Made by a program: the position numbers and the translations under genes. The notes under the pieces are model-generated. The model did not search any database and was not told where the DNA came from. It was given only the letters and a program-made list of their open reading frames with translations. A stretch of 64,000 nucleotides of DNA from Paragyromitra xinjiangensis (Eukaryota > Ascomycota > Pezizomycetes > Pezizales > Discinaceae), in contig JBCAMK010000020.1 in NCBI GenBank assembly GCA_038503065.1, positions 868,001 through 932,000 of the forward strand, given 5' to 3'. Positions 9,304 to 58,608 of the stretch are shown here, in pieces (positions within the stretch are counted from its first letter, which is position 1; each line of letters opens with the position of its first letter).

Positions 9304-10182
9304 TTTGGAATTTGGTCAAGCCTCGCTGAGGGGAATGTTGAGTAGGGTACATGCCGTTTCGATTTCCTTTTGATATGCCTGGCAGATTTGCTCAGCGGAT
9401 TCGTCAGGTCGGGTGGTAAGAACAAAATTGTGTCTGGCGGTTTTGGTGCACATGAGGATGGAAGTGTTGCGGGGGGAAAGTTCCTTCTTGATTGCTGCGA
9501 GGAGGGTGGAGTTATCAATTGTGGCTGGGATGTCGGTGGAGGTTTCCAAAATAATCTGGCGGTTGATGGTGGTGAACTGGGGTTGAAAGAATTTGGGGGG
9601 GAGGGCCTTCTTCTTTTTGCCCTTATTGACCTTGGTGAATGGGGCAGCGGGGGCGTTTGTGGCCTCAGCATAGGTCATAGGTTTGCGGTTGTTGAGGAGG
9701 GGGATTTGGGGTTTCTGAGCCGGTTGTTGGGGTTTTTGTTGTTGATTGCTTACTTGTGCTAGTGTGCGGGTGGGTTGGCTCGTATTCTTGTCAATAGTAC
9801 GGAGAACTCCAGCCATATTGTTAAGGGTGGTGGAGAGCTTTCCGACCATTTCTTGAAGGATCTTAGTTTGATCCGTTAGCCTGAGAATATCATTCTCTTG
9901 CATTGCCACCTTTGTGAGGAGGTGGGTGTTGTTTTCCTCCACTTGAGAATGGAGTCTGGCGAAGCTAGATTTTGAGAGCCAGGCGAGGTATTGCTCTGTG
10001 GAGTCTTCATGGTCCACGTCCGGCATGTAGTCTTCGTGTTTACTGATGTCTCTCAGCCAGTTTGGAGTGGAGTCGCTCGGGAGCTCTTGCATGTGCTCCT
10101 CGTCGATGTAGTGGGAATCGGTGGTAAGGCCAGCAGGGCCAGTGGTGTCAAAGAGAGATTGTGCGGTAGAGGATTCTGTCAT
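9304..10182 (-). pseudogene. LINE ORF1, A1, truncated
   Basis: It starts at ATG 10182 (MTESSTAQ) and reads through the acidic N-terminus, coiled coil (ENNTHLLTKVAMQENDILRL) and Gln/Pro linker into the central region. A TGA at 9318-9316 replaces Arg just before the truncation point. The C-terminal knuckles are missing. Confidence 0.88.
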
Positions 10183-10501
10183 TTTTGTGGGCGAACCTGA
10201 GCGTGCGGGTGCTGGTGAGGGGTTGGAAAGAGTTCTTTTCTTGCCAATGAGTGGGAGGGTGAAGTTGGTGCCAAAGGTCACCAGCTTCACAGGGGATGGG
10301 GAGGGTGTGCGGGATCTCCAAGGCGGAGTTGAAGGCGAATCCAGGATGAAATCGGGCGATGCGCCCGATGAAAGTGTTTGAGTGCGGGGAAGTGGTGATA
10401 AATGAAGCCGAATAGTCAAAGACTTTTTGCTGTGTGTAATGCCGTTGCAACGTAGAACTGGTGTTTTGCAGGGATCTTTTTACTCGTGCAGGATGGTGTC
10501 C
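9304..10501 (-). mobile_element. Family A LINE, array copy A1, 3'-truncated
   Basis: This is the downstream end of the minus-strand array. It has the full 319-nt leader (10501-10183) and the first two thirds of ORF1, then is cut at 9303/9304 by the B3 tail. ORF2 and the 3' UTR are missing. Its 5' end is joined to the 3' heptamers of copy A2 exactly as in the other array junctions. Confidence 0.92.
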
Positions 10502-10558
10502 AATTTCCAATTTCCAATTTCATTTCATTTTAGACAGTCGCTAACCTAACTAGCTACT
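10502..10558 (-). repeat. A2/A1 junction: 3' heptamers and 3'-end hairpin
   Basis: Sense strand, the 3' UTR of A2 ends with a hairpin (10558-10536), TCTAAAATGAAATG and then three GGAAATT-type heptamers. These abut the A1 5' end ACACCATCC with nothing between. This variant (AAAATGAAATG) belongs to subfamily II. Confidence 0.9.
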
Positions 10559-10758
10559 GAATGGCACGGGTACAAAAATACATGGCCTCATCCACCACCA
10601 AGCTCATTATCCCCGATCATAAACAAATAAACAAATAACTAAAGAAATACAAAACCATACTAACCGAAACAACTTGAACAATACGAAATATAAAAGAAAT
10701 AATCACTAAACCAACCGGAAACAAAAGAAAAACTTCCCCTGCCCGGTTGCCAAAAGAA

Positions 10759-13700
10759 TTAATTCATTTCCAGAAAATTGGCATAGGACACCATGTTAAG
10801 ATATTTGTTTGATGAAAGCGTCGCTAATTGATTCTCGCTAATAAAGTGTAGGAGATCAAGATGATTGGTGTTAAGGAGGATTGCCTGGTACCAGCTGTTG
10901 TCCCAATTCGGACGTGTCGAAGCATTTAGGGTGCAATCAAGAGCAAGGTGCAGTGAGGAGTTCAATGTGCCACAAGGGCATGTGGAAGGGGGGAAAGAGG
11001 ATTTGGATCCGCTTCAGTTTGTTGTGTGCGTAGTAACGATAACGCTTTTGCTTGAGTTCGGCGAAGAAATAGCAGGACGGGGGGAGGGTTCAAGGCAACT
11101 GGTGTCTCAGTTGTTTCTTGCCATTTCTTGAGGAGGGAAATTTTGGGCTGTAGCCGAAGCCAGCCTAAGGTTGTACATGTGTGTCGGCAGGGGGTGAGGG
11201 AGAGGCCAGCTTTGGCCATGGTATCAGCTATCTCGTTACCTGCAATGTTGGTATGAGATGAAGTCCATCTTCCCGTAACCGGGGCATTCAAATTGTGTAG
11301 AGTGTGTATGTGCATGAGGGTGGCTTTTAGAAACTGGCGATTGGAGGTGATGTTGCCAGCGAGGGCTCAGAGAGCATTCTGATTATCGATACAGAGATAA
11401 ACGGGTGTGTTATCAACTGGTAGGCATTGTATGAGATATTGGAGGGCTTCCTGTATTCCATGGATTTCGGCGTCCTCATTTTCACATTGGTGTCCCAAGT
11501 TGCAGTTGCCTTGGTATGATTGGGTAGTATTGCCGAATTGTATGAATTGGATGTTCCAGCCAGATGCTGTAACTCCATTCTCTGCTTTGGAACCATCTGA
11601 ATAAAGTACCCTGGCACTGGAGAGGCTGTGAAGCCAGTCCATGTGAGTGAGGGAGGCTGATTGTTTGGTGCCTTCAATGTGTATGTTGGCCACGTTGAGA
11701 AAAGGATGAAGGGGTAGGGAAAGATCTTCAAGGGGGGCACCCGGTAGAAGTTGGGATAAAAGGGATCCGACTCTTTGTAAGCCAGTGCCTTTAAATTCTG
11801 TTGGGTGGAGGTATTGTTGAAGGGTTTTGTGCAAGGGATGGTTTGGATTGCGCAGTAGGCGAATTCCATATGTTTGCGTGTGCATATCAAGAAGTAAGTT
11901 GAGAGGGGCTAGGCCAGCCTCAGGCAAGAGTTTGTGTATCGGGGTGTATTTGGGGAGGCCTGTGATCATTCAGGCTGCCCGGTGATAGGTGGGTGCGAGT
12001 CTGTCGAGGACGCTTTGAGTGCCTGTCCACCATACTTCAGAGCCGTACAAAGCGGCGGGAAGTATAATCGTGAGAGTTAACTGGTGAATTAAATTCAGGG
12101 TGGGGCCTTTATTTTTGATGAGATTATTAACGAGGTAGAGGGATGTTCTTAATCGGGAGGCAGCTTGTTGGCAATGAGTGTGAAAATTCAATCGCTGGTC
12201 AAGGAGGATGCCCAAAGTTTTGATATGAGGGGAGGGGGAAATTTCTGTGTCGAAAAGTTGGATGGTCTGAGTGGAGGGATGGGGAGTGCTTGTAGCCACA
12301 AGGTGGATTAACTCCGTTTTTGATCGAGAAAAGGTTATGTTGAGAAAATTGGCCCGCAGCACCTTGGCTGCATGTCTTTCAGCCAAGTGTTTGGTGGCGA
12401 AGGTGGGAGTTTTTGCTAGTTGTAGGGCGGTGTCATCATCAATATAGATTGTGGAAAGTTCCGCAGGATTGGAACTTGGTGGGGGATCCAGTGCAGCGGC
12501 ATAGATGACAAAAGCAATGGAAGAAAGGGGGGAGCCTTGCGGAAGTCCCACTTGCAAGGGTTGAGGGGTTTCAAGCTCCTTGTTGATGCGAAAGGCTAAA
12601 GTTCGATTTGTGGTGAAGCTGGACATCCATTTGACACACCTGGTGGGAAAGGTATAGTGCTCTAGGATTCTTATGAGGTGGGGATGAGAGACGCAGTTGA
12701 AAGCGCCGTCTATATCTGTTGCTAGGATTGTTGGGCGAAGGGGCGCCTGTGAGGCTTTCCTGTCATTTCCGAGGGTAGGGATTAACACTTGTTTTTGTGC
12801 AATTGTGAGAATGTAGTGTAGGGAGTCAGTGGCGGAAACTCCTGTTCTAGCTCCGGTGTGGTGTGGTTGTATTGCTCCATTCAATGTGGCACATGTTTCA
12901 AGCTTTCTGGCGAGTATTTTTTCCAACAACTTGCCAAAGCAGGAGAGTAGGGAAACAGGGCGGTAGCTTTTGGGAGAGGAATAATCGGCCTTGTTTGATT
13001 TAGGAATGGGGACAGAATGTGTGATTTTCCAAACTTCTGGCATGTGTCCGAGTTGTAGGAGGTTATTGAACAAGGTGGTTAAAATGGCAGGACGGGCTCG
13101 ATGCGTTTCCCGTAGTGTGATGTAGTTAAATCCGTCTCGGCCAACTGTTGTTCGCATGTTGGATTTATGGAGGAGGGAATCAATTTCTTCCGCTGAGATA
13201 GTGTGGGGATAGTTGCTAGTATCAGTGATGGGAGGGGGTAAGAAATGTGGGGGAAAATGGGGTGGAATGGTTTGGGGTGGGAAGAAAGTTTGGCGAAAGG
13301 CTTTGCCGATCGCTTCATTGTCTTCTTGTTGATTGATGGGAGGGATGTTGGGTTTATTCCTGGCTGAGGCACCATTTAACAGGTTCCAGGCGAAGCTGGG
13401 ACTGATGTCTTTGATGGATCTATGCCAGTGGTCCTACTTGGCAAGGGTTATTTCAGTTTTATAAATTTTGCGGATGGAATTGGCCTGTGTTCTGAAGTGT
13501 GTTGGAGCGTTGGGTTTCCTGGCTTCTGATTCAAGCCAGGAAAGTTTCCTTTTTAGTTTACGAAGGTTTGGTGTCCACCAGGATTTGGCGTGAGTCCTGG
13601 GTTTTGATAGGGGGATGGCGCATTCCACGGCTTGGTTGATGACGCTTATGATGTTAGATAGGGATTGGTTGGTTGTCGTTATGTTTTGGTAGTTGAAGGG

Positions 13701-14489
13701 GATGGCCACGTCCCTCATTATTTGATGAAATTGTGGCCAATCTGCTTTAGAATATAAGCGTCGGCTTGTGTATTCGGGTGGTTGGATGTAGAGTGTGGTG
13801 TATAGTGATATGTGATCGGAATTGTGGGGGCAGGTCAAAGGTGCAGACCATGGACCACAAGTGTCGGATAAGCCCCGGGCAAGGGTTAGGTCAAGAATAG
13901 AGGGTTGGTTGCCGTTTCTGGGAAAGTGGGTATATGTTCCAGGTTTGTTTAGGAGGCAGAAATCATTGTCCTCTAGCCATTCCGTAATTGAATTGGTTAT
14001 GGAAATGCGTTTAGAAAATAGATATTGGTGGGCATCAGCTTTAGGGCCATACCACCATGGGTGGTGTAGGTTAAAGTCTCCTGCCAATATGGTGTTGCGA
14101 TGAAAATGATGTGTGAGAAGTGGAAGGTGGTTGTCGCTCATGCGTGGTTGAATGTACACATTGCAGAGTTCCATTGTGAGGTGGGGAAGTTTAATTAGTA
14201 CTGAGATGATGTTCAGATTGGGTGATAAGGTGGTGGTTATTTTTGTGTTTTTTAAATCTTTCTTAATATAAGTAACTACTTTTGATGATGAAGACGGAAA
14301 ATATGCGTCGGAGCTTCGCGAATTTGAAGGTAGTTTGTCATGGTCAAGCCAAGGTTCTTGGAGCATGAGGATTAGGGAATGTTGTGAGCGGTCAAAGTCC
14401 AAGATTGCTGATAAGGTAGAGGCCTGTCCTTTGGCACAGTTCAGCTGCTGCACCGTGGCTATGCCTAGTGGAATCGGGTGTGGCTGCAT
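10759..14489 (-). pseudogene. LINE ORF2 (EEP-RT-RNase H), A2, multiple stops
   Basis: It starts at the TAATG overlap (14489). Stops: TAG 13436-13434 (Trp in AKWDHW), TGA 11972-11970 (Arg in RAARLI) and TGA 11369-11367 (Arg in NALRAL). A frameshift at about 10965-11000 precedes the C-terminal Cys/His region. The endonuclease motifs (QEPWL, GDFNLHH, SDH), RT motifs (TDIDGAF, GLPQGSP, YIDDD) and RNase H motifs (YSDGSK, AEIHG, IDNQN) are all still readable. The three stops are C:G-to-T:A changes. Confidence 0.9.
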
Positions 14490-15901
14490 TAAGCAGTGGT
14501 GATGGTGATTCGGGAGGCTTTGAGGCTCTCAGAGAGCTTGGTATAGGCAATGCAAACTTTGCGTTCATAGGCCTTGTGACCTTGATTGCAATTGGCGCAG
14601 CGGATTGGGGGGTGGGTGCACTTGGTGCCTGCTGGGCATCCAGAGGTGGTGCACGGATGTTTGAAGGTTTCATGTGCCTCGGCACATACAGCGCATTTAA
14701 ATTCATTTTTGCAGGTCTGTTGGTGATGTCCATAGGCCTGGCATTTCCTGCATTGAGTAGTTGGAGATACTGCGATATATTCTTGCACTCTGCAAAAGGA
14801 GTTAAAGAGCGGGATTTGAGAAAGTCCGAGGGTTTCCATTGTAAATTTTTGCGGAAGGGCAATGACAATGGTGGAGTGAGTTTTGTTGGCTCTTGCCTCT
14901 GGGGTGGTGAGCTATCTGGGGGTTTGAGCGAGAGTGAAAGTAGGGACGGAGATGGATAATTGTTCTGCGACTTCGGCCATAGTTGCCTTGGTGGGGATGC
15001 CGTGAATAATGAATTTAGACCACTTGGAGTTTGGTCTGGCTTCGCCAAGGGGGATGTTTAGAAGGATGCATGCCGTTTCGATTTCCTTGAGGTATGCCTG
15101 GCAAATTTGTTCGGCTGATTCGTTGGGTCGGGTGGTGAGGACAAAGTTATGTCTGGCGGTCTTTGTACACATAAGGATGGAAGTATTGCGGGGGGAGAGC
15201 TCTTTGTTGATTGCTGCGAGAAGAGTGGAATTGTCAATTGAAGCCGGGATGTCGGCGGAGGTTTCCAGGATGATTTGGCGGTTTATGGTGGTAAATTAGG
15301 GTTGGAAGAGTTTGGGGGGAAGGGCCTTCTTCTTTTTACCCTAGTTGACCTTGGTGAATGGGGCAGTGGGGGTGTTTGTGGCTTCGGCATAGGTCAATGG
15401 TTTGCCGTAGTTGAGGAGGGGGACTTGAAGTTTCTGCGCTTGTTGTTGGGGTTTCTGTTGTTGGTTGTTTGCTGGTGCTGGTGTGCGAGTGGGTTGGCTC
15501 GTGTTCTTATCGATGCTACGAAGAACTCCGGCCATGTTATTGAGGGTGGTGGAGAGCTTTCCAACCATTTCTTGGAGGATCTTGGTTTGATCCGTGAGTC
15601 TGAGAATGTCATTCTCTTGCATTGCCACTTTGGCGAGGAGGTGGGTATTATTTTCCTCCACTTGAGAATGAAGTCTGGCAAAGCTGGACTTTGAGAGCCA
15701 GGCAAGGTATTGTTCGGTGGAGTCTTCATGATCCACATCTGGCATGTAATCTTCGTGTTTGCTGAAGTCTTTCAGCCAGTTTGGGGTGGAATCGTCCGGG
15801 AGCTCTTGCATGTGCTCCTCGTCGATGTACTGGGAGTCGGTGGTGAGGCCGGCGGGGCCGGTAGTGTCAAAGAGAGATTGTGCAGTGGAGGATTCAGCCA
15901 T
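14489..15901 (-). pseudogene. LINE ORF1, A2, three nonsense codons
   Basis: It starts at ATG 15901 (MAESSTAQ). The frame is retained throughout but has TAG at 15343-15341 (Lys, A-to-T), TAA at 15298-15296 (Gln, C-to-T) and TAG at 14914-14912 (Trp in PRWLTT, G-to-A). The coiled coil and the three Cys/His knuckles are otherwise preserved. It ends in the TAA that overlaps the ORF2 ATG. Confidence 0.9.
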
Positions 15902-16220
15902 CTTTGTGGTTGAGCCTGAGCGTGCAGGTGCTGGTGAGGGGTTTGAAAGGGTTCTTTTCTTGCCGATGAGGGGGAGGGTGAAGTTGGTTCCAAAGGTCAC
16001 CAGCTACACGGGAGATGGGGAAGGTGTGTGGGATCTCCTGGGAGGAGTTGAGGGCGAATCCAGCATGAAATGGGGCGTAGCGCCCGATGAAAGTGTTTGA
16101 GTGCGGGGAAGTGGTGATAAATGAAGCCGGAGAGTTAAAGACTTTTTGCTGTGTGTAACGCCATTGCAACGTAGAACTGGTGTTTTGCAGGTATCTTTTT
16201 ACTCGTGCAGGATGGTGTCC

Positions 16221-16277
16221 AATTTCCAATTTCCAATTTCAATTTATTTTAGACAGTCGCTAACCTAACTAGCTACC
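16221..16277 (-). repeat. A3/A2 junction: 3' heptamers and 3'-end hairpin
   Basis: The hairpin (16277-16255) here has the first stem base changed A to G, which still pairs as G-U. It is followed by AAAATAAATTG and three heptamers, then the A2 5' end. Subfamily I 3' end. Confidence 0.9.
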
Positions 16278-16482
16278 GAATGGCACGCGTATATGAAATA
16301 CATGACCTCAACCACCGCCAACCTCAACTTCCCCTAATAAAATAAAAGAAAATACAAAACATACTTCCCGAAACTTACTCCCAAAAATAAAACAAAATAA
16401 CAACATAATAAAAATTTAAAGAAATAATCCCTAACTGACCGGAAACAAAGGAAAAACTTCCCCCGCCCGGTTCACCAAGAAA

Positions 16483-19400
16483 TCAATTCAACTCTCGCAA
16501 ATTGGTGTTTGACACCGTATTAAGATAATCGTTCGATGAAATTGTAGCTAGCTCGTTCTCTTTGATAAAATATAAGAGGTCGAGGTAATTGTTATTGAGG
16601 AGGATGGCCTTGTACCAATTGTTGCCCCAGGACGGCCGCGAGGTGGCGTTGAGGGTGCAGTTAAGAGCAAGGTGAGGTGAAGAGTTAATCATGCCACATG
16701 CACATGTGGATGGGGGATTAAGGGGATTTGTGTCCACCTTGGTTTGTTGAGTGCGAAGTAGCGAAATTGCTTTCGCTTGCGTTCGTCGGAGGAAGCGCAA
16801 TACGGTAGGAGGGTGTAAAGCAACCGGCGTTTCAGTTGTGGATTGTCATGATTTGAGTAGGTTGGATTTGGGTTGTAAGCGGAGCCAGCCTAAAGTAGTG
16901 CAAGTATGTTTGCATTGAGAAGCGAGGAGGCCCTGTTTGGCCATGGAATCTGCTATCTCGTTGCCAGGGATGTTGGTGTGTGATGGCGTCCAACGCCCCA
17001 TGACGGTTGAGTTTAAATTATGAAGAGTGTGAATATGAGATAAAGAATCTTTGAGAAACTGTCGATTGGATGTGGGATGGCCTGCGAGGGAACGGAGGGC
17101 GTTTTGATTGTCAACGCAGAGGTAAATCGGTGTGTTATCTGCTTGGAGATTGTGGATAAGGTAGTGCAAGGCTTCTTGAATTCCATGAATCTCTGCATCT
17201 TCGTTTTCGCATTGGTGTCCCAGGTTGCAATTGCCCTTGAAGGAAGCTGTGGTGGTACCGTATTGAATAAATTGAATGTTCCATCCGGATGCGGTAATTC
17301 CGTCTTCTGATTTGGATCCGTCGGAATAGATTACCCAGGCTTTGGAGAGACTGTGAAGCCAGTCCATGTGGGTGAGTGTGGCGGATTGTTTGGTGCCCTC
17401 TATGTGGATATCGGAATCACTGAGGAAAGGGTGGGAGGGTAGGGATGGATCTTCAAGTGGAGGGCCGGATAATAACCTAGCTAAGAGGGAGCCAACCCTC
17501 TGTAGTCCAGTGCCTTTGAAATCCGTGGGATGGAGGTGGGCAAGGAGATTTCGGTGTAATGGGTGATTGGGATTTCTTAAGATGCGGATGCCATAGCTTT
17601 GTGTCCGCATGTCGAGCAGAAGGTTGAGGGGGGGTAAGCCCGCCTCTGGTAGGAGTTTGTGAATAGGAGTGAATTTTGGAAGACCGGAAATGAGGCGGGC
17701 GGCACGGTGATAAGCAGGTGCAATCCTGTCTAGTGTGCTTTGGGTGCCCGTCCACCACACTTCAGAGCCATAGAGAGCGGCTGGGAGGATGATGGTGAGG
17801 GTGAGTTGGTGTATTAGGTTGGGTGTGGGTCCTTTATCCTTGATGAGGTTATTTACCAAGTATAGGGAGGTCCTGAGGCGGGAGGCTGCTTGTTGACTGT
17901 GAGTGTGGAAGTTTAGTCTCTGGTCTAGAAGAATGCCCAGAATCTTGATGTGTGGGGAGGGGGATGTTTCTGTATCAAAGATTTTAATTGATTGTGAAGT
18001 GGGTTGAGGAGTGCTTGTGGCGATGAGGTGAATTAACTCAGTCTTCGCTTGTGAAAAAGTGATGTTTGGAAAAGAAGCATGAAGCGTTTTGGCGGTGTGT
18101 CTTTCGGCTAATCGTTTGGTAGCGAAGGCAGGAGTTTTCGCTAATTGCAAGGCAGTGTCATCATCGATACAGATGGTAGAAGATTCGGTTGGATGAGGGT
18201 TGGTGGGGGGATTGAGTGCAGCAGCATAGATCACAAATGCTATAGAAGAAAGAGGGGAGCCTTGTGGGAGTCCAACTAATAATGGTAGTGGGGTTTCCAA
18301 TTCATTATTGATTCGGAAGGCTAGCCTGCGATTTGAAGTGAAGCTGTGCATCCATTTGACACACCATACTGGGAAGTTATAGTGCTCGAGGATGTTAATG
18401 AGATGAGGGTGTGAAACGCAGTTGAAGGCGCCATCAATGTCGGTGGCTAGGATAGAAGGGCGAAGAGGGGCTCTTGAAGCTTTCCTGTCGTTACCCAGGG
18501 TGGGGATGAGAACTTGTTTCTGAGCAGTGGTGAGGATTATATGTAAGGAATCAGTGGCAGATATGCCTGTTCTGGCTCCTGTATGGTGTGGTTGCATGGA
18601 GCCATTTAAAGTGGCGCATTTTTCGAGTCTTTTGGCAACTATCTTTTCTAGAAGTTTGCCAAAGCAAGAAAGGAGGGAAACCGGGCGGTAGCTCTTGGGG
18701 GAAGAGTAGTTGGCTTTGTTTGATTTTGGAATGGGTACGCAGTGGGTGATTTTCCATTGTTCAGGCATAATTCCAAGCTGGAGTAGGTTATTAAAAAGTA
18801 TGGTAAATAAGGAAGGTCGGGCTCGGTGGGTTTCGCGCAGGGTGATGTAATTGATGCAGTCAGGGCCAACTGCTGTACGCATGTTGGATCTGTGGAGTAG
18901 CAGGTCAATTTCCTCCGCTGAGACTAGGTAGGGGAAGGAGGTAGTATCGGAAGTGGGTGTTTTTAGAAAATTAGGTGGGAAATTAGGTGGAATTGTTTGT
19001 GGAGGGAAAAAGGTATTGCGGAAGGCCATGGCAATGCCTTCGTTGCTTTCTTGTTGAGCAATGGATGGTATGTTGGGTTTGTTTCTTGCTGACGCGCTGT
19101 TGAGTAGGTTCCAGGCTGAGCTTGGACTGATATCCTTAAAGGAGCGGTGCCAGTGATCCCATTTGGCGAGGGTGATTTCGGATTTGTAAGTTTTGCAAAT
19201 GGAAATGGCAATGGTTTTGAGGTGGGGGGAGGAATTAGGTTTCCTGGTTTCTGATTCGATCCAGGATAGCTTTCTTTTCAGCTTGCTGAGGTTTGGAGTC
19301 CACCAGGTTTTGGCGTAAGTCCTGGGTTTGGAGAGGGGGACTGTTTCTTCTACGGCCCTGTTGATGAGGTTGGTGATGTGGGATAGGGTAGAGGTGGCCG

Positions 19401-46834: not shown

Positions 46835-47153
46835 CTTGGTGGGTGAGCCTGAGCGAGCTGGTGCTGGTGAGGGGTTTGAGAGAGTTCTTTTCTTGCCGAT
46901 GAGGGGGAGGGTGAAGTTGGTTCCAAAAGTCACCAGCTTCACGGGGGATGGGGATGGGGTGCGGGATCTCCTGGGAGGAGTTGAGGGCGAATCCAGGATG
47001 AAATGGGGTGTAGCGCCTGATGAAAATGTTTGGGTGCGGGGAAATGGTGATAAATGAAGCTGAAGAGTTAAAGACTTTTTGCTGTGTGTAACGCCGTTGC
47101 AACGTAGAACTGGTGTTTTGCAGGGATCTTTTTACTCGTGCAGGATGGTGTCC

Positions 47154-47210
47154 AATTTCCAATTTCCAATTTCAATTTATTTTAGACAGTCGCTAACCTA
47201 ACTAGCTACT
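47154..47210 (-). repeat. A8/A7 junction: 3' heptamers and hairpin
   Basis: The hairpin (47210-47188), AAAATAAATTG and three heptamers abut the A7 5' end. Subfamily I. Confidence 0.9.
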
Positions 47211-47414
47211 GAATGGCAGGCGTATATGAAATACATGACCTCAACCACCGCCAACCTCAACTTCCCCTGAAAAAAACTAAAAGAAAATACAAAACATTCT
47301 CCTGAAGCTCACTCCCAAAATAAAATAACAACAAAAATAATAAGGATTTAAAGAAATAATCCCCGACTGACCGGAAACAAAGGAAAAACTTCCCCCGCCC
47401 GGTTCACCAAGAAA

Positions 47415-50400
47415 TCAATTCAACTCTAGCAGGTTGGTGTTGGACACCGTGTTAAAATATTCGTTTGATGAAATTGTAGCTAACTCGTTCTCTTTAATAA
47501 AATATAAGAGGTCGAGGTGATTGTTATTGAGGAGAATGGCCTGATACCAATTGTTGCCCCAGGACGGCCGCGACGTGGCGTTCAGGGTGCAATTGAGAGC
47601 GAGGTGAGGTGAGGAGTTAATCATGCCACATGCACATGTAGATGGGGGGTTGAGGGGATTTGGATCCACCTTGGTTTGTTGAGTGCGAAGTAACGAAATT
47701 GCTTTCGCTTGCGTTCGTCGAAGGAAGCGCAATACGGTGGGAGGGTGTAAAGCAACTGGTGTTTCGGTTGTGGATTGCCATGCTCTGAGTAGGTTGAGTT
47801 TGGGTTGTAAGCGAAGCCAACCTAGAGTGGTGCAAGTATGTTTGCATTGAAGAGTGAGGAGACCCTGTTTGGCCATGGAATCTGCTATTTCGTTGCCTGG
47901 GATGTTTGTGTGTGATGGAGTCCAACGTCCCATGACAGTTGAATTCAGATTGTGAAGAGTATGGATGTGAGATAAAGAATCTTTGAGAAATTGTCGGTTT
48001 GATGTAGGGTGGCCTGCGAGGGAGCGGAGGGCGTTTTGATTGTCGACGCAGAGGTAAATCGGTTTGTTATCTGCTTGAAGATTGTGAATGAGGTAATGCA
48101 GGGCTTCTTGGATTCCATGAATCTCTGCATCTTCATTCTCGCATTGGTGTCCTAGGTTGCAATTACCCTGGAAGGAGGATGTGGAGGTGCCGTATTGGAT
48201 GAGTTGAATGTTCCATCCAGATGCGGTGATTCCGTCTTCTGATTTGGATCCATCAGAGTAAAGTACCCAGGCTTTAGAGAGGCTGTAGAGCCAGTCCATG
48301 TGGGTGAGAGCGGCGGATTGTTTGGTGCCTTCTATGTGGATGTCGGAGTCGCTGAGGAAAGAATGGGAAGGTAGGGATGGATGTTCAAGAGGTGGGCCGG
48401 ATAATAATTTGGATAAAAGGGAGCCAACCCTCTGTAGTCCAGTGCCTTTGAAGTCTGTGGGATGAAGGTGGGCGAGGAGATTTCGGTGTAATGGGTGATT
48501 GGGATTTCTTAAAATGCGGATGCCATAATTTTGTGTCTGCATGTCGAGTAGAAGATTGAGGGGGGCTAAACCCGCCTCTGGTAGGAGTTTGTGTATAGGA
48601 GTAAATTTTGGGAGGCCGGAGATGAGACGGGCGGCACGGTGATAAGCAGGTGCGATCCTGTCTAGTATGCTTTGGGTGCCCGTCCACCACACTTCAGAGC
48701 CATAAAGTGCTGCTGGAAGGATGATGGTGAGAGTGAGTTGGTGTATTAAATTGGGTGTAGGGCCTTTATACTTGATGAGATTATTTACCAAGTATAGGGA
48801 GGTCCTGAGGCGAGAGGCTGCTTGTTGACTGTGGGTGTGGAAATTTAATCTCTGGTCTAAAAGAATGCCCAGGGTTTTGATGTATGGGGAAGGGGATATA
48901 TCTGTATCAAAGATTTTAATTGATTGTGAAGGGGGTTGATGGGTGCTTGTGGCGATGAGGTGAATTAATTCAGTCTTCGCTTGTGAGAAGGTGATGTTCA
49001 GGAAAGAAGCACGGAACGTTTTGGCGGTGTCTTTCAGCTAATCGTTTGGTGGCGAAGGCAGGGGTTTTCGCTAATTGCCAGGCAGTGTCATCATCAATAT
49101 AGATGGTGGAAGATTCAGTTGGATGAGGATCGGTGGGGGGATCAAGTGCAGCAGCATAAATGACGAATGCTATGGAGGAGAGGGGGGAGCCTTGTGGGAG
49201 TCCAACTAATAATGGTTGGGGGGTTTCCAATTCATTATTGATTCGGAAGGCTAGCCTGCGGTTTGAAGTGAAGCTGTGCATCCAATTGACGCACCATGTT
49301 GGAAAATTATAATGCTTAAGGATGTTGATGAGATGAGGATGTGAAACGCAATGAAAGGCGCCATCGATATCATTGGCTAAAATGGAGGGGCGGAGAGGGG
49401 CTCTTGAGGCTTTCCTGTCGTTGCCCAGGGTAGGAATGAGGACTTGTTTCTGAGCAGTGGTGAGGATTGTGTGCAGGGAGTCAGTGGCAGATATGCCTGT
49501 TCTGGCTCCTGTGTGGTGTGGTTGTATGGAGCCATTCAAAGTGGCGCATTTCTCGAGTCTTTTGGCAACTATCTTTTCTAGAAGTTTAGCAAAACAAGAG
49601 AGGAGGGAAACTGGACGATAGCTCTTGGGGGAAGAGTAGTCGGCTTTATTTGTTTTTGGAATGGGTACGCAATGGGTGATTTTCCATTGTTCAGGCATAA
49701 TCCCAAGCTGAAGTATATTATTAAAAAATATTGTAAATAAGGAAGGTCAGGCTCGGTGAGTTTCGCGCAGGGTGATATAATTGATGCCATCAGGTCCAAC
49801 CACTGTGCGCATGTTGGATCTGTGAAGTAGCAGATCAATTTCCTCCGCTGAAACTAGGTAGGGGAAAAAAGTAGTATTGGAAGTAGGTGTTTTTAGAAAA
49901 TTAGGTGGGAAATTAGGTGGAATTGTTTGTGGAGGGAAAAAGGTATTACGGAAGGCCATGGCAATGCCTTCGTTGCTTTCTTGTTGAGCGATGGATGGTA
50001 TGTTGGGTTTGTTTCTTGCCGACGCGCTGTTAAGTAGGTTCCAGGCTGAACTTTGGCTAATATCCTTAAGGGAACGGTGCCAGTGATCCCATTTGGCGAG
50101 GGTGATTTCGGATTTGTATGTTTTGCGGATGGAAATAGCAATAGTTCTGAAGTGGGGGGGAGAATTGGGTTTCCTGGCTTTCGATTCAATCCAGGTTAAC
50201 TTTCTTTTCAGCTTACTGAGGTTTGGAGTCCACCAGGTTTTAGCATAAGTCCTGGGTTTGGAAAGGGGAACTGTTTCTTCTACGGCCCTGTTGATGAGGT
50301 TGGTGATGTGGGATAGGGTAGAGGTGGCCGTTTCCTCGTTTCTGAACACCAGGGGAATGGCTGCGTCTTTTATGACTTGGTGAAATGCTGGCCAGTTGGT

Positions 50401-51144
50401 TTTGGAATATAGGCGTCTGCTGGTATATTCAGGTGGATGTATGTAAAGGGTGGTATATAAGGTGATGTGGTCAGAATTATGGGGACAGGCAGATGGGGCA
50501 GACCAAGGACCGCAAACATCAGATAAGCCACAGGCTAGGGTGAGGTCCACGATAGAAGGTTGGTTTCCGTTTCTAGGAAAGTGAGTGAGGGTTCCGGGTT
50601 TATTGAGGAGGCGAAAGTCCATATTTTCCAGCCATTCGGTGATGGTGTTGGTTATCGATATGTGTTTGGAGAAGAGGTATTGACGGGTTTCTGCGATGGG
50701 ACCATACCACCATGGGTGGTGGAGGTTGAAGTCGCCCGCTAATATTTTGTTGTGGTGAAACTGGTGTGTGAGGAGTGGTAGGTGATTATTGCTTGTGCGT
50801 GGTTGGATGTATATGTTGCAAACTTCAACCGTTAAATGTGGCAATTTAATGAGAAGTGAAATGATATTGGGATTTGGTGCTAATGTGGTTGTTATTTTTG
50901 TGTTTTTGAGGTTTTTCTTAATATGTATAACAACTTTACATGACGTGGAAGGAAAGAAAGCGTCAGAGCTTTGTGAAATTGGAGGGAGATCATCGTGGTC
51001 AAGCCAGGGTTCCTGGAGCATGAGAATTAGGGAGGATGATGTCTGATTATGATGCATAATTGCTGATAAAGTTGAGGCCTGTCCTTTGGCGCAGTTCAGC
51101 TGCTGCACCTTGGCTATGCCTGGTATGGATGGTTGTGTCTGCAT
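47415..51144 (-). pseudogene. LINE ORF2 (EEP-RT-RNase H), A8, stop and frameshift
   Basis: TGA at 49749-49747 replaces Arg in THRARPSLF (early RT), and a 2-nt deletion near 49030 shifts the frame after YIDDD (LAERHTAK region). RNase H and the C-terminal finger are intact in the shifted frame from 48791 onward. The conserved RT motif A reads NDIDGAFHC instead of TDIDGAFNC. Confidence 0.9.
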
Positions 51145-52562
51145 TAAGCAGTGGTGGTAGTAGTTCGGGAGGATTTAAGGCTCTCAGTGAGCTTGGTGTA
51201 GGAGATGCAAACTTTGCGCTCGTAGGCCTTATGGCCCTGGTTGCAATTGGCGCAGCAAATCGGGGGGTTGGTGCACTTGGAACCAGCCGGGCATCCAGAG
51301 GTGGTGCATGGATGTTTGAAGGTTTCGTGTGCCTCAGCACAAACGGCGCATTTGATTTCGTTCTTGCATGTTTGCTGGTGGTGTCCATAAGCCTGGCACT
51401 TCCTGCACTGTGTGGTAGGGGAAACTGCAATGTATTCCTGTACCCTGCAAAAGGAATTGAAGAGTGGGATTTGAGAGAGTCCGAGGGTTTCCATGGTGAA
51501 CTTTTGTGGGAGGGCAATGACAATGGCGGAGTGGGTTTTGTTGGCTCTGGCCTCTGGGGTCGTGAGCCATCTTGGGGTTTGCGCAAGGGTGAACGTGGGT
51601 ACGGAAATGGACATTTGCCCTGCAACTTCGGCCATTGTTGCCTTAGTGGGAATGCCATGAATTATGAATTTGGACCATTTAGAGTTTGGTCTGGCTTCGC
51701 CGAGGGGGATCTTGAGCAATGTGCATGCTGTTTCGATTTCCTTCTGATAGGCCTGGCAGATTTGTTCCGCAGATTCGTCAGGTCGGGTGGTGAGGACGAA
51801 ATTGTGTCTTGCAGTTTTGGTACACATTAGGATGGAGGTATTGCGTGGAGCAAGTTCCTTGTTGATTGCGGCGAGGAGGGAGGAGTTGTCAATGGAGGGT
51901 GGTACGTCTGCTGAGGTTTCCAGGATGATCTGCCTGTTGATAGTGGTGAATTGTGGTTGGAACAATTTGGGGGGAAGAGCCTTCTTCTTCTTGTTGCCCT
52001 TGTTAACCTTGGTGAATGGGGCGGCGGGAGCATTTGCAGCCTGTGCGTAGGTCATGGGCTTCCCATCATTGAGGAGGGGAATTTGGGGTTTCTGGGCCAG
52101 TTGTTGCTTGGGTTTTTGTTGGTTGCTTGCTGGTGCGGGAGTGTGTGATGATTGATTTGTGTTCTTGTCAATGTTGTGGAGAACTCCGGCCATGTTGTTC
52201 AGGGTGGTGGATAGTTTGCCAACCATTTCTTGAAGGATCTTAGTTTGATCCGTGAGCCTTAGGATGTCATTCTCCTGCATGACTATTTTGGCGAGGAGGA
52301 GGGTGTTGTTTTCCTCGGTTTGGGTGTTGAGGTGGGCGAAGCTGGATTTCAACAGCCATGCCGTGAATTGTTCGGTATTGCCTTCATCAGGGATTTCAGG
52401 CATGTAGTCCTCAGTGGCTGAAAAGTCACGGAGCCAGTTGGGAGTGGAGTCATCTGGAAGTTCGTGCATGAGAGCTTCATCGTGGTATTGTGAGTCGGTG
52501 GTGAGGTTTTGAGGACCCGTGTCAAAGAGAGACTGCGCAGTGGAGGGTCCAGGTTGAGCCAT
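51144..52562 (-). CDS. LINE ORF1, A8, intact (CCHC RNP protein)
   Basis: 472 aa from ATG 52562 (MAQPGPSTAQ). It has one extra residue in the Gln/Pro linker relative to A7 (KPKQQLAQKP). The pre-third-knuckle segment reads SKCTNPPICC where the other copies have SKCTHPPIRC. The last knuckle Cys/His residues are unchanged. The TAA overlaps the ORF2 ATG. Confidence 0.91.
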   Translation of the reverse strand: MAQPGPSTAQSLFDTGPQNLTTDSQYHDEALMHELPDDSTPNWLRDFSATEDYMPEIPDEGNTEQFTAWLLKSSFAHLNTQTEENNTLLLAKIVMQENDILRLTDQTKILQEMVGKLSTTLNNMAGVLHNIDKNTNQSSHTPAPASNQQKPKQQLAQKPQIPLLNDGKPMTYAQAANAPAAPFTKVNKGNKKKKALPPKLFQPQFTTINRQIILETSADVPPSIDNSSLLAAINKELAPRNTSILMCTKTARHNFVLTTRPDESAEQICQAYQKEIETACTLLKIPLGEARPNSKWSKFIIHGIPTKATMAEVAGQMSISVPTFTLAQTPRWLTTPEARANKTHSAIVIALPQKFTMETLGLSQIPLFNSFCRVQEYIAVSPTTQCRKCQAYGHHQQTCKNEIKCAVCAEAHETFKHPCTTSGCPAGSKCTNPPICCANCNQGHKAYERKVCISYTKLTESLKSSRTTTTTA

Positions 52563-52881
52563 CTTCGTGGGAGAACCTGAGCGAGCGGGAGCTGGTGATG
52601 GGTTTGAAAGAGTTCTTTTCTTGCCGATGAGGGGGAGGGAGAAGTTGGTACCAAAGGTCACCAGCTTCACAGGAGATGGGGAGGGTGTGCGGGATCTCCT
52701 GGGAGGAGTTGAGGGCGAATCCAGGATGAGATGGGGCGTAGCGCCCGATGAAAGTGTTTGAGTGCGGGGAAGTGGTGATAAATGAAGCCGAATAGTTAAA
52801 GACTTTTTGCTGTGTGTAACGCCGTTGCAACGTAGAACTGGTGTTTTGCAGGGATCTTTTTACTCGTGCAGGATTGTGTCC

Positions 52882-52938
52882 AATTTCCAATTTCCAATTT
52901 CATTTAATTTTAGACAGTCGCTAACCTAACTAGCTACT
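52882..52938 (-). repeat. A9/A8 junction: 3' heptamers and hairpin
   Basis: The hairpin (52938-52916), AAAATTAAATG and three heptamers abut the A8 5' end. Subfamily II 3' end next to a subfamily I neighbour. Confidence 0.9.
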
Positions 52939-53148
52939 GAATGGCACGGGTAAACAAAATACATGGCCTCATCCACCGCCAACCTCATCATCCCCTTCAT
53001 AAAACAAACTATAACCAAAGAAATACAAAACTAAATATATATCGCATACCGAAAGCAAAACAAAACTAAATAATTCTAAAATAAAAGAAATAATCCTAAA
53101 CCAACCGGAAACAAAAGAAAAACTTCCCCCGCCCGGTTTACCGAAGAA

Positions 53149-56100
53149 TCAATTCAATTCAAGCAAATTGGTGTTAGACACCGTATTAAGATAATTGTTC
53201 GATGAAAGTGTCGCTAATTGATTCTCGCTGATGAAATGCAAGAGATCAAGATGATTGGTATTGAGGAGGATGGCCTGGTACCAGTTATTGCCCCAATTTG
53301 GGCGTGTTGTGCCATTTAGGGTGCAATCGAGGGCAAGGTGAGGTGAAGAATTTATTGTGCCATATTGGCATGTTGATGGGGGAGAAAGAGGGTTTGGATC
53401 CGCTTTGGTTTGTTGAGTGCGGAGCAGTGAAATAGCTTTTGCCTGGGTTCGTCGAAGGAAACGCAGGACGGTAGGAGGGTGGAGGGCAACCGGTGTTTCA
53501 GTTGTTTCCTGCCATTTTTTGAGAAAGAGAAGCCTGGGTTGTAACCGAAGCCAGCCTAGAGTTGTGCAAGTGTGTTGGCATGGGTTGAGCAGGAGGCCTG
53601 ATTTGGCCATGGAATCGGCTATTTCATTGCCCAGAATGTTAGTGTGCGAGGGGGTCCATCTTCCCATAACTTGGGAATTTAGATTGTGTAGTGTGTGTAT
53701 GTGAGCAAGTGTAGACTTTAGGAATTGTCGGTTTGAAGTTGCGTTGCCAGCAAGAGCTTGCAGTGCGTTCTGATTGTCAATGCATAGATAAACGGGTGTA
53801 TTCTCTACTGGCAGGTGGTGAATAAGATGGTGTAAGGCTTCCTGTATTCCGTGAATTTCTGCATCTTCGTTTTCACATTGGTGACCAAGGTTGCAATGTC
53901 CTCGATAGGATTGTGTGGTGTTCCCATACTGTATGAATTGAATGTTCCATCCGGATGCGGTGACTCCGTTTTCGGCTTTGGACCCGTCGGAGTAAAGCAC
54001 CCAGGCATTGGTCAGGCTGTGAAGCCAGTCCATGTGGGTGAGTGAGGCTGATTGTTTGGTGCCTTCGATGTGGATATTGGTAGCACTGAGAAAAGGATGG
54101 GAAGGTAAGGAGAGATCTTCGAGGGGGGGGCCTGGTAAGAGTTTGGATAACAGAGATCCAACTCTTTGTAGGCCAGTGCCCTTGAAGTCTGCTTGGTGAA
54201 GATATTGTAGGAGGGTATTATGTAGGGGATGATTTGGATTGCGCAGTAGGCGTATGCCATAAGCTTGTGTGCGCATGTCAAGTAATAAATTGAGGGGTGC
54301 TAGGCCTGCCTCGGGTAGGAGTTTGTGTATTGGTGTGTATTTGGGGAGTCCAGTGATTAAGCGAGCTGCACGGTGATAGGTGGGTGCGAGTCTGTCAAGA
54401 ATGCTTTGGGTGCCAGTTCACCACACTTCGGAACCGTATAGTGCGGCAGGCAATATGATTGTGAGAGTAAGTTGATGAATCAAATTGGGGGTGGGACCTT
54501 TATCTTTGATGAGATTATTGACTAGGTAGAGGGCGGTCCTTAGTCGGGAGGCAGCTTGTTGGCAGTGAATGTGGAAATTCAACCTCTGATCAAGGAGAAT
54601 GCCCAAAATTTTGATATGTGGGGAAGGAGGAATAATTGTATTGAAAAGATTAATAGATTGTGAAGGAGGAAAGGGGGTGCTTGTGGTGATTAGGTGTAGC
54701 AACTCCGTTTTTGGTTGAGAAAAGGTTATATTTAGGAAGGAAGCTCGTAAGGTCTTGGCTGCATGCCTTTCAGCTAGCCGTTTTACGGCGAAAGCAGGAG
54801 TTTTAGCCAGTTGTAATGCTGTGTCGTCATCAATATAGATGGTGGAAATTTCAGCGGCGTTAGAATTGGATGGGGTGTCCAGGGCGGCGGCATAAATAAC
54901 GAAGGCTATCGAAGAAAGAGGGGAGCCTTGTGGAAGTCCCACTAATAGGGGTTGGGGAGTTTCCAATTCTTTGTTGATGCGGAATGCTAAAGTTCGATTG
55001 GTTGTGAAACTTTCCATCCATTTGATGCACCAGGGGGGAAAAGTATAGTGTTCAAGAATTTTTATGAGGTGGGGATGAGAGACGCAATTAAAGGCGCCAT
55101 CGATGTCCGTTGCTAAAATTGAAGGGCGAGGAGGTATTCGTGAAGCTTTCCTGTCGTTCCCAAGAATGGGAATTAATACCTGTCTTTGTGCGGTTGTGAG
55201 GATGTAGTGTAGGGAGTCAGTGGCAGAAACTCCTGTCCTTGCTCCTGTGTGGTGCAGTTGAATTGCGCCGTTTAAGGTGGCACATGATTCGAGCTTTTTG
55301 GCGACTATTTTCTCCAGCAATTTGCCAAAGCAGGAAAGTAGGGAAACCGGACGGTAGCTTTTGGGGGAGGAATAGTCGGCTTTGTTCGATTTGGGAATTG
55401 GGACACAATGAGTTATTTTCCAAACTTCGGGCATATAGCCTAGATGTAGGAGATTGTTGAATAGGCTGGTTAGAATTGAAGGACGGGCTCAATGAGTTTC
55501 GCATAAGGTTATGTAATTGATCCCATCCGGGCCAACTGCTGTTCGCATGTTGGATTTGTGGAGGAGGAAGTCGATTTCTTCTGCTGTGATGGTATATGGA
55601 AAGGTACTGGTGTTTGAAGTGGGGGGTGGTAAGAAATGTGGGGGAAAGTCAGGTGGGATATTTTGGGGTGGGAAGAAGGTGTGGCGAAAAGCTTTGCCAA
55701 TTTCTTCGTTGCTTTCTTGTTGGTTGATGGGTGGTATGTTGGGTTTGTTTCGTGCTGAGGTACTATTGAGTAGGTTCCAGGCGGAGCTGGGGCTAATGTC
55801 TTTGAGGGATCTGTGCCAGTGATCCCATTTGGCGAGGACGATTTCTGTTTTATAGATTTTTCGAACGGAAATGGCTTGCGCTCTGAGATGGGGTGAAGGA
55901 TTGGGTTTCCTGGCTTCGGATTCGATCCAGGAAAGTTTTCTCTTGAGTTTGCGGAGGTTGGGTGTCCACCAGGATTTGGCGTGGGTTTTGGGTTTGGACA
56001 TTGGAATTGCTTGCTCTGCTACTTGATTGATGACAGTGAGGATGCGGGATAGGGACTGGTTGGTGGTCGCTATGTTCTGGTAATTGAGAGGGATTGCTGC

Positions 56101-56880
56101 GTCCTTGATGATTTGATGAAATTGTGGCCAGTTTGCTTTGGAGTAGAGGCGTCGGCTTGTATATTCCGGAGGGTGGATGTAAAGGGTGGTGTATAGAGAC
56201 ATGTGATCTGAATTGTGTGGGCATGTTGCGGGTGCAGACCAAGGTCCACAAGTGTCGGTTAGTCCCCGAGCCAGGGTGAGGTCAAGTATGGAAGGTTGGT
56301 TGCCGTTTCTAGGAAAATGTGTGTATGTTCCGGGTTTGTTGAGCAGGCGGAAGTTGTTGTCCTCTAGCCATTCGGTGATTGAACTGGTTAGGGATATGCG
56401 TTTGGAAAATAAGTGTTGGTGTGTTTCTGCCTTAGGGCCATACCACCAGGGGTGGTGGAGGTTGAAGTCTCCTGCTAGTATGGTGTTCCGATGGAAGTGA
56501 TGAGTGATGATGGGGATGTGATTGTCGCTTAGGCGTGGTTGAATGTAAACGTTGCAGAGTTCCATTGTGAGGTGAGGAAATTTGATCAAAATTGATATGA
56601 TGTTTGGGTTGGGTGATAATGTGGTGGTTATTTTTGTGTTTTTTAAGTTTTTCTTGATATAAGTAACTACTTTCGGTGAAGAAGAAGGAAAATAAGCGTC
56701 TGAGCTTTGTGAAATGGGAGGAAGTTTATCATGATCAAGCCAAGGTTCTTGAAGCATGAGAATTAGGGATTGTGGTGAGCGATCGAAATCTAAAATTGCT
56801 GATAATGTGGAGGCCTGCCCTTTGGCGCAGTTCAGCTGCTGTGCCGTGGCTATGCCTGATGGGGATGGGTGTGCCTGCAT
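53149..56880 (-). pseudogene. LINE ORF2 (EEP-RT-RNase H), A9, two nonsense codons
   Basis: The 1243-codon frame is retained. TGA at 55491-55489 replaces Arg in ETHRARPS and TGA at 54420-54418 replaces Trp in SEVWWTGTQ. Both are C:G-to-T:A. The endonuclease, catalytic RT motifs (TDIDGAF, GLPQGSP, YIDDD) and RNase H motifs are intact between the stops. Subfamily II (AILDFDRS in place of AIMNHNQ). Confidence 0.9.
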
Positions 56881-58289
56881 TAAGCAGTGGTGGTAGTAGT
56901 TCGGGAAGATTTAAGGCTCTCAGTGAGCTTGGTGTAGGCGATGCAGGTTTTGCGTTCGTAAGCTTTATGGCCTTGATTGCAATTAGCGCAGCGGATTGGA
57001 GGATGGGTGCACTTGATGCCAGCTGGGCATCCAGAGGTGGTGCAGGGGTGTTTGAACGTTTCATGAGCTTCAGCACATACTGCGCATTTGAACTCGTTTT
57101 TGCAGGTTTGCTGGTGATGTCCATATGCCTGGCATTTCCTGCATTGTGTGGTGGGGGAAACTGCGATGTATTCCTGTACTCTGCAGAAAGAATTGAAAAG
57201 AGGAATTTGGGAGAGTCCAAGGGTTTCCATGGTGAATTTTTGAGGGAGGGCAATGACGATGGCTGAGTGAGTTTTGTTGGCTCTTGCTTCATCGGTTGTG
57301 AGCCATCTGGGGGTTTGTGCAAGAGTGAAAGTGGGAACGGAAATGGACATTTGTTCCGCGACCTCAGCCATTGTTGCTTTGGTGGGGATGCCGTGGATTA
57401 TGAATTTGGACCATTTGGAGTTTGGTCTTGCTTCACCGAGTGGGATGTTGAGGAGGGTGCATGCTGTTTCAATCTCTTTTTGGTATGCCTGGCAGATTTG
57501 TTCCGCCGATTCGTTAGGTCGAGTTGTAAGAACAAAGTTATGTCTGGCAGTTTTGGTACATAAAAGGATGGAAGTATTGCGCGGGGCGAGCTCTTTATTG
57601 ATTGCTGCCAGGAGGGAGGAATTATCGATGGTGGGTGGAACTTCGGCAGAGGTTTCCAATATAATTTGGCGGTTTATGGTGGTGAATTGTGGTTGGAACA
57701 GTTTGGGAGGGAGGGCCTTCTTCTTTTTGTTGCCCTTGTTGACCTTGGTGAATGGGGCAGCAGGAGCGTTCGCAGCCTGTGCGTAAGTCATGGGTTTCCC
57801 TTCGTTGAGGAGAGGGGTTTGGGGTTTCTGGGCCGGTTGTTGTTGGGGTTTTTGGTTGCTGGCTGGTGCGGGAGTGCGAGAGGATTGGCTTGTGTTCTTC
57901 TCGATGTTGCGAAGAGCTCCAGCCATGTTATTAAGGGTGGTGGACAATTTGCCAACCATTTCCTGAAGGATCTTGGTTTGATCCGTGAGCCTGAGGATGT
58001 CATTTTCCTGCATGGCGACTTTGGCGAGGAGAAGGGTGTTGTTTTCCTCAGTTTGGGTGTTGAGGCGGGCGAAGCTGGATTTAAGTAGCCATGCCGTGAA
58101 TTGTTCGGTGTTGCCCTCATCTGGAATCTCGGGCATGTAGTCTTCTGTTGCTGAAAAGTCACGAAGCCAATTGGGAGTAGAGCCATCGGGAAGCTCATGC
58201 ATGAGAGCTTCATGGTGGTACTGAGAATCGGTGGTGAGGCCCTGGGGACCGGTGTCAAAGAGGGATTGTGCAGTAGAGGATTCAGCCAT
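56880..58289 (-). CDS. LINE ORF1, A9, intact (CCHC RNP protein)
   Basis: 469 aa from ATG 58289 (MAESSTAQ). The linker differs from the other copies (NTSQSSRTPAPASNQKP), resembling A4 and A8. Coiled coil, basic patch, PRWLTTDEAR (Asp for Pro) and the three knuckles are present. The TAA overlaps the ORF2 ATG. Confidence 0.91.
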   Translation of the reverse strand: MAESSTAQSLFDTGPQGLTTDSQYHHEALMHELPDGSTPNWLRDFSATEDYMPEIPDEGNTEQFTAWLLKSSFARLNTQTEENNTLLLAKVAMQENDILRLTDQTKILQEMVGKLSTTLNNMAGALRNIEKNTSQSSRTPAPASNQKPQQQPAQKPQTPLLNEGKPMTYAQAANAPAAPFTKVNKGNKKKKALPPKLFQPQFTTINRQIILETSAEVPPTIDNSSLLAAINKELAPRNTSILLCTKTARHNFVLTTRPNESAEQICQAYQKEIETACTLLNIPLGEARPNSKWSKFIIHGIPTKATMAEVAEQMSISVPTFTLAQTPRWLTTDEARANKTHSAIVIALPQKFTMETLGLSQIPLFNSFCRVQEYIAVSPTTQCRKCQAYGHHQQTCKNEFKCAVCAEAHETFKHPCTTSGCPAGIKCTHPPIRCANCNQGHKAYERKTCIAYTKLTESLKSSRTTTTTA

Positions 58290-58608
58290 CTTTGTGGGGG
58301 AACCTGAGCGGGCGGGAGCTGGAGAGGGGTTGGAAAGGGTTCTTTTCTTGCCGATGAGGGGGAGGGTGAAGTTGGTGCCAAAGGTCACCAGCTTCACAGG
58401 GGATGGGGAGGGTGTGCGGGATCTCCTGGGAGGAGTCGAGGGCGAATCCAGGATGAGATGGGGCGAGGCGCCCGATGAAAGTGTTTGAGTGTGGGGAAGT
58501 GGTGATAAATGAAGCCGAAGAGTTAAAGACTTTTTGCAGTGTGTAACGCGGTTGCAACGTAGAACTGTGGTTTTGCAGGGATCTTTTTACTCGTGCAGGA
58601 TGGTGTCC

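Follow-up and report, generated by a model that had tools for sequence, protein, structure and literature searches.

The stretch of DNA analysed here, 64,000 nucleotides of the Pezizales fungus Paragyromitra xinjiangensis (hereafter the window), contains a head-to-tail array of a long interspersed nuclear element (LINE) that inserts specifically at a single site within the integrase gene of a chromovirus, a Ty3/gypsy element. This specificity is seen both in the placement of the LINE copies and in the occurrence of filled and empty target sites. Judging from sequence comparison, it is highly probable that such arrays are built by a site-specific LINE whose target on the chromovirus is recreated upon insertion. 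The window corresponds to positions 868001-932000 of contig JBCAMK010000020.1 (C20) in a 48.2-Mb assembly of 22 contigs, labelled C1-C22; labels such as L030 and L137 denote stretches taken from contigs for reading.

Self-comparison of the window delimited an array on the minus strand that repeats every ~5.72 kb, extends from 9304 to 58606 and is composed of eight complete 5.72-kb LINE copies and one cut copy, with zero bases between them. An earlier note on this DNA, which had described eight full-length LINEs arranged head to tail on the minus strand in a ~5.72-kb unit with no host DNA between, was correct in count, orientation and spacing; its lower limit of 9304 stands, while its outer coordinate of 58608 has to be replaced by 58606. 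The units, their open reading frames (ORFs), the lineages to which they belong (described below) and the adjoining gypsy element are as follows.

58607..59750, minus strand: 5' portion of pol of the gypsy that hosts A9, reaching as far as the integrase codons PYRPW, on the upstream side of A9; outer limit approximate, the 150 bp beside A9 aligning with other gypsy flanks
52880..58606, minus strand: LINE A9, 5727 bp, first of the array, inside the gypsy integrase gene; ORF1 open (568 aa stop to stop), ORF2 broken
47152..52879, minus strand: LINE A8, 5728 bp, lineage 1; ORF1 open, ORF2 broken
41424..47151, minus strand: LINE A7, 5728 bp, lineage 1; ORF1 open, ORF2 broken
35703..41423, minus strand: LINE A6, 5721 bp, lineage 1; ORF1 open, ORF2 broken
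27662..35702, minus strand: LINE A5, 8041 bp (5721 bp minus B4), lineage 1, split by the retroelement B4; ORF2 open
21947..27661, minus strand: LINE A4, 5715 bp, lineage 2; single heptamer in the 3' tail, frames broken
16219..21946, minus strand: LINE A3, 5728 bp, lineage 1; both ORFs open
10500..16218, minus strand: LINE A2, 5719 bp, lineage 2; both ORFs broken
9304..10499, minus strand: LINE A1, 5'-most 1196 bp only, truncated at the border of a B element (described below)

Each of the eight internal junctions has a tail ending in ...AAATTGG, followed directly by the first base of the next unit, the internal 3' ends consisting of one or more AAATTGG heptamers. The units following these tails start with ACACCATCC in seven cases and with ACACAATCC in one (A8).

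A genome-wide search for this junction, which the earlier note had proposed, returned the same junction 52 times (≤3 mismatches). A fuller census, from which starts more than three mismatches away from the patterns escape, yielded 107 starts of two 5' types, 80 of them tandem and 27 in gypsy, all 27 at one nucleotide position of the integrase gene. The search for A-type starts (AC..CATCC), with the upstream flank unconstrained, gave 66 starts, to which one from the junction search was added. Fifty-three of these 67 are tandem (50 lying ≤60 bp from a found tail and three directly after AAATTGG) and 14 are at the gypsy site. The flanks of all 14 (A9 and 13 elsewhere) were read: they end in ...CC(C/A)TACCNNCNNTGG, represent the gypsy integrase codons P-Y-(R/H/Q)-(P/L)-W, and break at the identical nucleotide. 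The second, G-type start (GCCTCATCC) was found 40 times, 27 times after a LINE tail and 13 times after the gypsy codons, all 13 flanks again having been read. The first G-type pattern contained upstream letters; a control with the flank unconstrained returned 40 places, namely 39 starts already counted and one A-type start at C7 (the entry C7:1598104 in the first G-type list is likewise an A-type start already counted).

Among 99 tails, 76 run into the element's own start (50 by start/tail proximity and 26 of 40 read individually), 22 run into the same gypsy site, including the other 14 of these 40 and those of C2, C14 and, after a ~265-bp interruption, C15, and one leads elsewhere. The tail at C4:1828778 was counted as tail-to-start, its own start being interrupted by other DNA after ~20 bp.

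The usual target consensus is CCNTGG|(A/G)CCTC(A/G)AT(C/T)TC, corresponding to the codons PYRPW|(T/A)SISMDF. Direct site search located 41 such sites, 22 filled and 19 empty, distributed over two gypsy subfamilies: 20 sites in subfamily 1 (8 filled, 12 empty) and 21 in subfamily 2 (14 filled, 7 empty), with C16:693575 counted as empty despite a B element ~20 bp upstream. By position (27 of 27 array-first copies at one nucleotide, 22 of 41 sites filled) the LINE falls into the sequence-specific class of non-LTR (long terminal repeat) elements. The target itself carries rve, SH3_Tf2-1 and Chromo (PF00385) domains in L137, while a further copy, L030, carries reverse transcriptase (RT), RNase H, H2C2 and rve; the combination by which a chromovirus is recognised, gypsy pol with a C-terminal chromodomain, is present. 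In L137 (2812-3933) the LINE tail provides the downstream integrase half with an in-frame ATG (MKLEIGNW|ASISMDF), and the downstream integrase end together with the chromodomain remains an open frame after the LINE insertion, possibly by chance.

The best preserved unit, with respect to coding capacity, is A3. Its ORF1 (570 aa) contains two CCHC motifs detected by regular expression and matched no Pfam family, and its ORF2 (1135 aa) contains an EEP endonuclease, a reverse transcriptase and an RNase H, all above Pfam cut-offs. By these predicted domains the array repeat is an APE-type LINE with RNase H. It resembles the fungal Tad1/I-type LINEs in the CCHC motifs of ORF1 and in the endonuclease, RT and RNase H of ORF2. 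In a search of 5.8 billion proteins the best-scoring match showed 31% identity over 55%, and the named matches include fungi at 23-25% identity. An RT tree composed of search matches and local elements only, that is without reference clades, groups A and A' with a support of 0.94.

Pairwise identity among A2-A9 ranges from 76 to 92%. Lineage 1 (A3, A5, A6, A7 and A8) is 89-92% alike, while the members of lineage 2 (A2, A4 and A9) share 81-84% among themselves and 76-79% with lineage 1; the lineages alternate along the array in the order A9 | A8-A5 | A4 | A3 | A2. Since the units are only 76-92% identical and two lineages alternate, a collapse or expansion artefact, which the earlier note had considered, is very unlikely; with complete copies 8-24% apart, an assembly artefact was rejected. 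Private substitutions number 122-190 per lineage-1 unit (A3, A5-A8), similar though unequal, and provide no clear age order of the units along the window array. The first 250 alignment columns of A2-A9 are 94% alike on average, compared with 78-88% for the remainder, and this pattern of like 5' ends across both lineages looks as if 5' ends had been swapped inside arrays.

The full-length LINE is accompanied by shorter and related forms. A 2.09-kb unit of C6, and one alike in C14, has as its sole frame an ORF1-like one (554 aa in C6); the C6 unit matches A3 over its 5'-terminal ~220 bp (76%) and its 3'-terminal ~120 bp (90%), and the ~5.7-kb and 2.09-kb spacings coexist in the same arrays, for example in C6. 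A sister family is present as a head-to-tail array of four units, one measuring 2.08 kb, at C20:936.7-956.0 kb (L030-L032), and its ORF2 protein is 56% identical to that of the array LINE. Its poly(A) tails abut ACAACACCGTCC directly, and on the opposite strand its flanks spell the gypsy chromodomain codons ...KRVEYLVL / WEGYDQEEATW... (C20, with a second flank at C2). Hence its site is YLVL|WEGY in antisense, a stretch that corresponds to a Pfam chromodomain in another gypsy copy. Genome-wide, 38 starts of the sister family were found against one match to the reversed-pattern control; 28 are tandem and 10 are, judged by their letters, the first of an array (further reading covered the C20 and C2 flanks), although the pattern contained upstream letters and starts in unrelated DNA could escape it. 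Its sites amount to 15, seven filled and eight empty. Twelve gypsy copies possess both sites, 912-950 bp apart: both are filled in four (C2, C12, C5, C22), both are empty in seven, and in one the integrase site alone is filled. Single gypsy copies therefore carry both LINE families. A third related family was noticed in stretches L025-L027. Its minus copy (C20 ~828.7-832.4 kb) has an ORF2 40% identical to that of the array LINE, while its plus copy (C20 ~836.6-842.3 kb) lies outside the gypsy sites with an apparently ordinary 12-bp target duplication, CTAGAGGCAGTA.

As to the way in which the arrays grow, the junctions themselves are informative. The target reads ...CC(C/A)TGG|ACCTCAATCTC before insertion and ...AAATTGG|ACCTCAATCTC at the 3' junction after it; three upstream bases and everything downstream are preserved. 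Because the downstream half-site adjoins a tail ending in TGG, the target site is recreated. The endonuclease of the LINE would cut the integrase site, reverse transcription would be primed on the downstream side of the cut, and ~5-8 bp of the target would be duplicated, leaving a 3' junction ...AAATTGG|ACCTCAATC in which the target is present again. Later elements, of other lineages or of the 2.09-kb ORF1-only form, would then insert at the recreated site after renewed endonuclease cutting, which we infer, and units would be added head to tail. The mixture of ~5.7-kb and 2.09-kb spacings within single arrays speaks for such a course. The same logic would apply to the sister family at the chromodomain site. 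Recombination between units probably also alters the arrays. Of the three options put forward in the earlier note, targeting of the element's own end comes closest, but the primary target is the gypsy integrase site recreated at the LINE 3' end, where 27 of 27 array-first copies are located. The gypsy site of C22 has GCTTC in place of GCCTC, and both LINE starts of the C22 array likewise read GCTTC; at C5, a variant target of the sister family, ATAACAC, is matched by a LINE start of the same sequence. Such matches would result if a short target duplication were copied anew with every insertion.

Several observations weigh against this account. In the window array and in C6, C2 and C12 the units begin with ACACC, whereas the adjoining targets in C6, C2 and C12 read ACCTC, and the sister family in C19 and C22 starts with ACAACAC against a 3' flank of ATAACAC; neither fits a copied target. 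The lone exceptional tail, C16:695922, meets neither its own start nor the gypsy site, a B element following after 15 bp. The similar private substitution counts of the lineage-1 units are what one shared event would also yield. The 3' gypsy flank of the window array was not found and has been lost, so that closure of this particular array is not demonstrable. Finally, of 26 filled gypsy flanks compared over 150 bp, 17 are nearer to another filled copy, six tie and three are nearer to an empty copy, so that some of the filled gypsies may share descent.

The last point would be accounted for if a single LINE had inserted into one gypsy and the composite had later multiplied, either as the gypsy transposed or by segmental duplication, the shared site reflecting common descent; every flank is indeed gypsy, and some filled G-type flanks are mutually identical over 150 bp. 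This explanation is nevertheless scarcely credible. Filled and empty gypsies are intermingled in a tree of the 150-bp upstream flanks, which, like the nearest-copy comparison, excludes C16:693575 and the C22 flank of 106 bp. The filled flank of C19-minus is identical over 150 bp to the empty copy C5:350621 and to three on C9, that of C6-plus-b to the empty C10:110876, and that of C18 to the empty C10:984319. Because filled and empty copies interleave and three filled flanks exactly equal empty ones, several gypsies must have been struck separately. Moreover, two gypsy subfamilies bear LINEs with different 5' ends, and the sister family behaves likewise at another site.

Site specificity would be fully retained if, at one gypsy site, RT passed from the 5' end of one RNA to the 3' end of the next, the whole array arising in a single event; only the mode of unit addition differs. 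Such template jumping agrees with the exact junctions and full-length units, with the similar private substitutions of A3 and A5-A8, and with the finding that, where both sides of an array were read, the two halves of a single gypsy site enclose it (five of seven directly, C15 after its interruption). However, RNAs up to ~24% different would have to come together in a single event, the numbers of private substitutions are unequal, and template jumping alone leaves the GCTTC variant at both C22 LINE starts unexplained. It therefore appears improbable in comparison with repeated insertion at a recreated site.

A fixed period could also be produced by unequal crossing-over after one insertion, giving a satellite-like array by tandem duplication, and C16_4 and C16_6, which are nearest relatives at both ends (~4% apart), may indeed represent a local duplication. 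As a general explanation, however, this is very unlikely, as the lineages alternate in the window array and few copies have their nearest relative beside them. Among copies of C16, C13, C7 and C1, the nearest relative belongs to the same array in 4 of 20 cases for the first 600 bp and in 4 of 20 for the last 628 bp; here C1_1, at least 44% from all others, has no weight, and C16_8 (5') and C16_2 (3') tie between their own and another array. In the ACACC set, comprising the window array with C6, C2 and one more C20 copy, the counts are 4 of 15 (5') and 2 of 14 (3'), C6p_L003 and C20x_827 standing far apart from every other row at one end or at both. The raw same-array totals of 13 of 29 and 12 of 28 include nine and eight window-array rows, respectively, which were assessed in the ACACC set instead. 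The 5' part of A9, for example, differs by 4.1% from a C6 copy and by at least 11.8% from its own array mates. Since nearest relatives are mostly found in other arrays, local amplification is not the main route, and the idea that the family was simply amplified as an array cannot be upheld in that role.

Tails and starts of the A family were detected on 20 of the 22 contigs, in one region per contig of at most ~150 kb; C11 and C17 yielded neither with the patterns used. One further scan scored 41 of 486 candidates and says nothing on absence from a contig. Not all empty sites are close to the array regions: six of the 19 are hundreds of kb away from them. The observed/expected CpG ratio of the C20 region (820-982 kb) is 0.45-0.76, as against 0.67-0.90 in eight other C20 stretches, the ranges overlapping. 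Taken together with position, these values are compatible with centromeric heterochromatin, and the array regions may perhaps be centromeres. The usual fungal telomere repeat is TTAGGG; here, TTTAGGG repeats occur at the right end of C20 (L016) and likewise at contig ends among those listed (C1, C2, C3, C6). The possibility that arrays sit at chromosome ends, which the earlier note had raised, was not borne out for the window array, which is located at ~0.88-0.93 Mb on C20, a contig of 1.57 Mb with TTTAGGG at its right end. Telomeric arrays of the MoTeR kind were rejected, the contig ends carrying TTTAGGG and the arrays being internal. The array region of C15 is close to the contig end.

The remaining features of the window are the following.

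31831..34143, plus strand: B4, a separate 2.3-kb retroelement within A5, with a 10-bp target duplication
4133..7064, plus strand: inverted internal piece of the array LINE family
60455..64000, plus strand: neighbouring gypsy with gag, protease and RT start, running past the window to an empty target at C20:933444-933476

B4 is a later insertion, flanked by the 10-bp repeat GTGTTTGAAG at 31821-31830 and 34144-34153. Elements of this B type, ~2.3 kb long with AATA repeats at the 3' end, are common in the region and occupy 1-1699, 1826-4131, 7065-9303 and 31831-34143 of the window; in related copies close by, a frame containing an RGRGRG stretch is open. At its left end the array is rearranged: besides the inverted internal piece of LINE A listed above, a 122-bp fragment of it stands at 1700-1821, between two B elements. 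In the stretches C16:695722-695949 and 693400-693700, a B element stands at the exceptional tail mentioned above, with a gypsy site beyond it.

Among known systems, Tx1L of Xenopus, which is specific for the DNA transposon Tx1D, is similar in that a LINE targets another mobile element. It differs from the present case, where the target is not Tx1D but LTR-retrotransposon coding sequence (integrase, chromodomain), ORF2 includes an RNase H and the copies form head-to-tail arrays. Sequence-specific LINEs as such, and LINEs on transposons, are already known, transposons being named among the targets of sequence-specific LINEs in one account (PMC4640811). According to another (PMC7367193), MoTeR1 and MoTeR2 of Magnaporthe oryzae form head-to-tail arrays in which a defective partner has both termini in common with the complete element. 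Both features, the head-to-tail fungal LINE arrays and a partner sharing both termini, recur here. The MoTeRs, however, reside in telomere repeats and have a putative restriction-like endonuclease, whereas the present LINE has an internal gypsy target and an EEP endonuclease, and its partner retains ORF1. Neither the restriction-like endonuclease nor the telomere-repeat target of the MoTeR/CRE type was found.

A further parallel is offered by Celine of poplar and Zepp/ZeppL of green algae, described in PMC11288735 and PMC11005252 as LINEs concentrated at centromeres in one region per chromosome, much as the present LINEs are gathered in one region per contig. Celine is often found within Gypsy/CRM elements, which is reported to reflect shared location only, and has a loose AAGA/AATA preference, unlike the identical nucleotide position in 27 of 27 cases here. 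Zepp of the green alga itself was rejected as an identification, the host being a Pezizales fungus. A MOT1 gene of the host, joined from open frames, has its best matches in Pezizales, with Rhizina undulata (80% over 43%) as the best named one, and Terfezia and Kalaharituber at 87% over 31%. A literature search of open-access PMC text revealed no site-specific member of the Tad1/I-type fungal LINEs and no LINE specific for an integrase or chromodomain site of an LTR retrotransposon, most subscription papers being outside that search. Nor did the literature searched contain a target within LTR-retrotransposon coding sequence, two families paired on a single host element, or the array logic.

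On balance, and with modest confidence, the two sister LINE families may be regarded as hyperparasites of one chromovirus, which use its integrase core and chromodomain codons, reach its heterochromatin, inactivate it and recreate their targets, their arrays forming much of the centromeres. The existence of head-to-tail LINE arrays would have a simple reason: the tail ends in the bases of the upstream half-target, and the target survives each insertion. Strict target choice by LINEs is extended to conserved protein-coding codons of another retrotransposon, and a single host element is seen to offer two sites, one to each of the sister families. Should the clusters be centromeres, these LINEs would home to them by following a chromodomain element rather than by reading the chromatin themselves.

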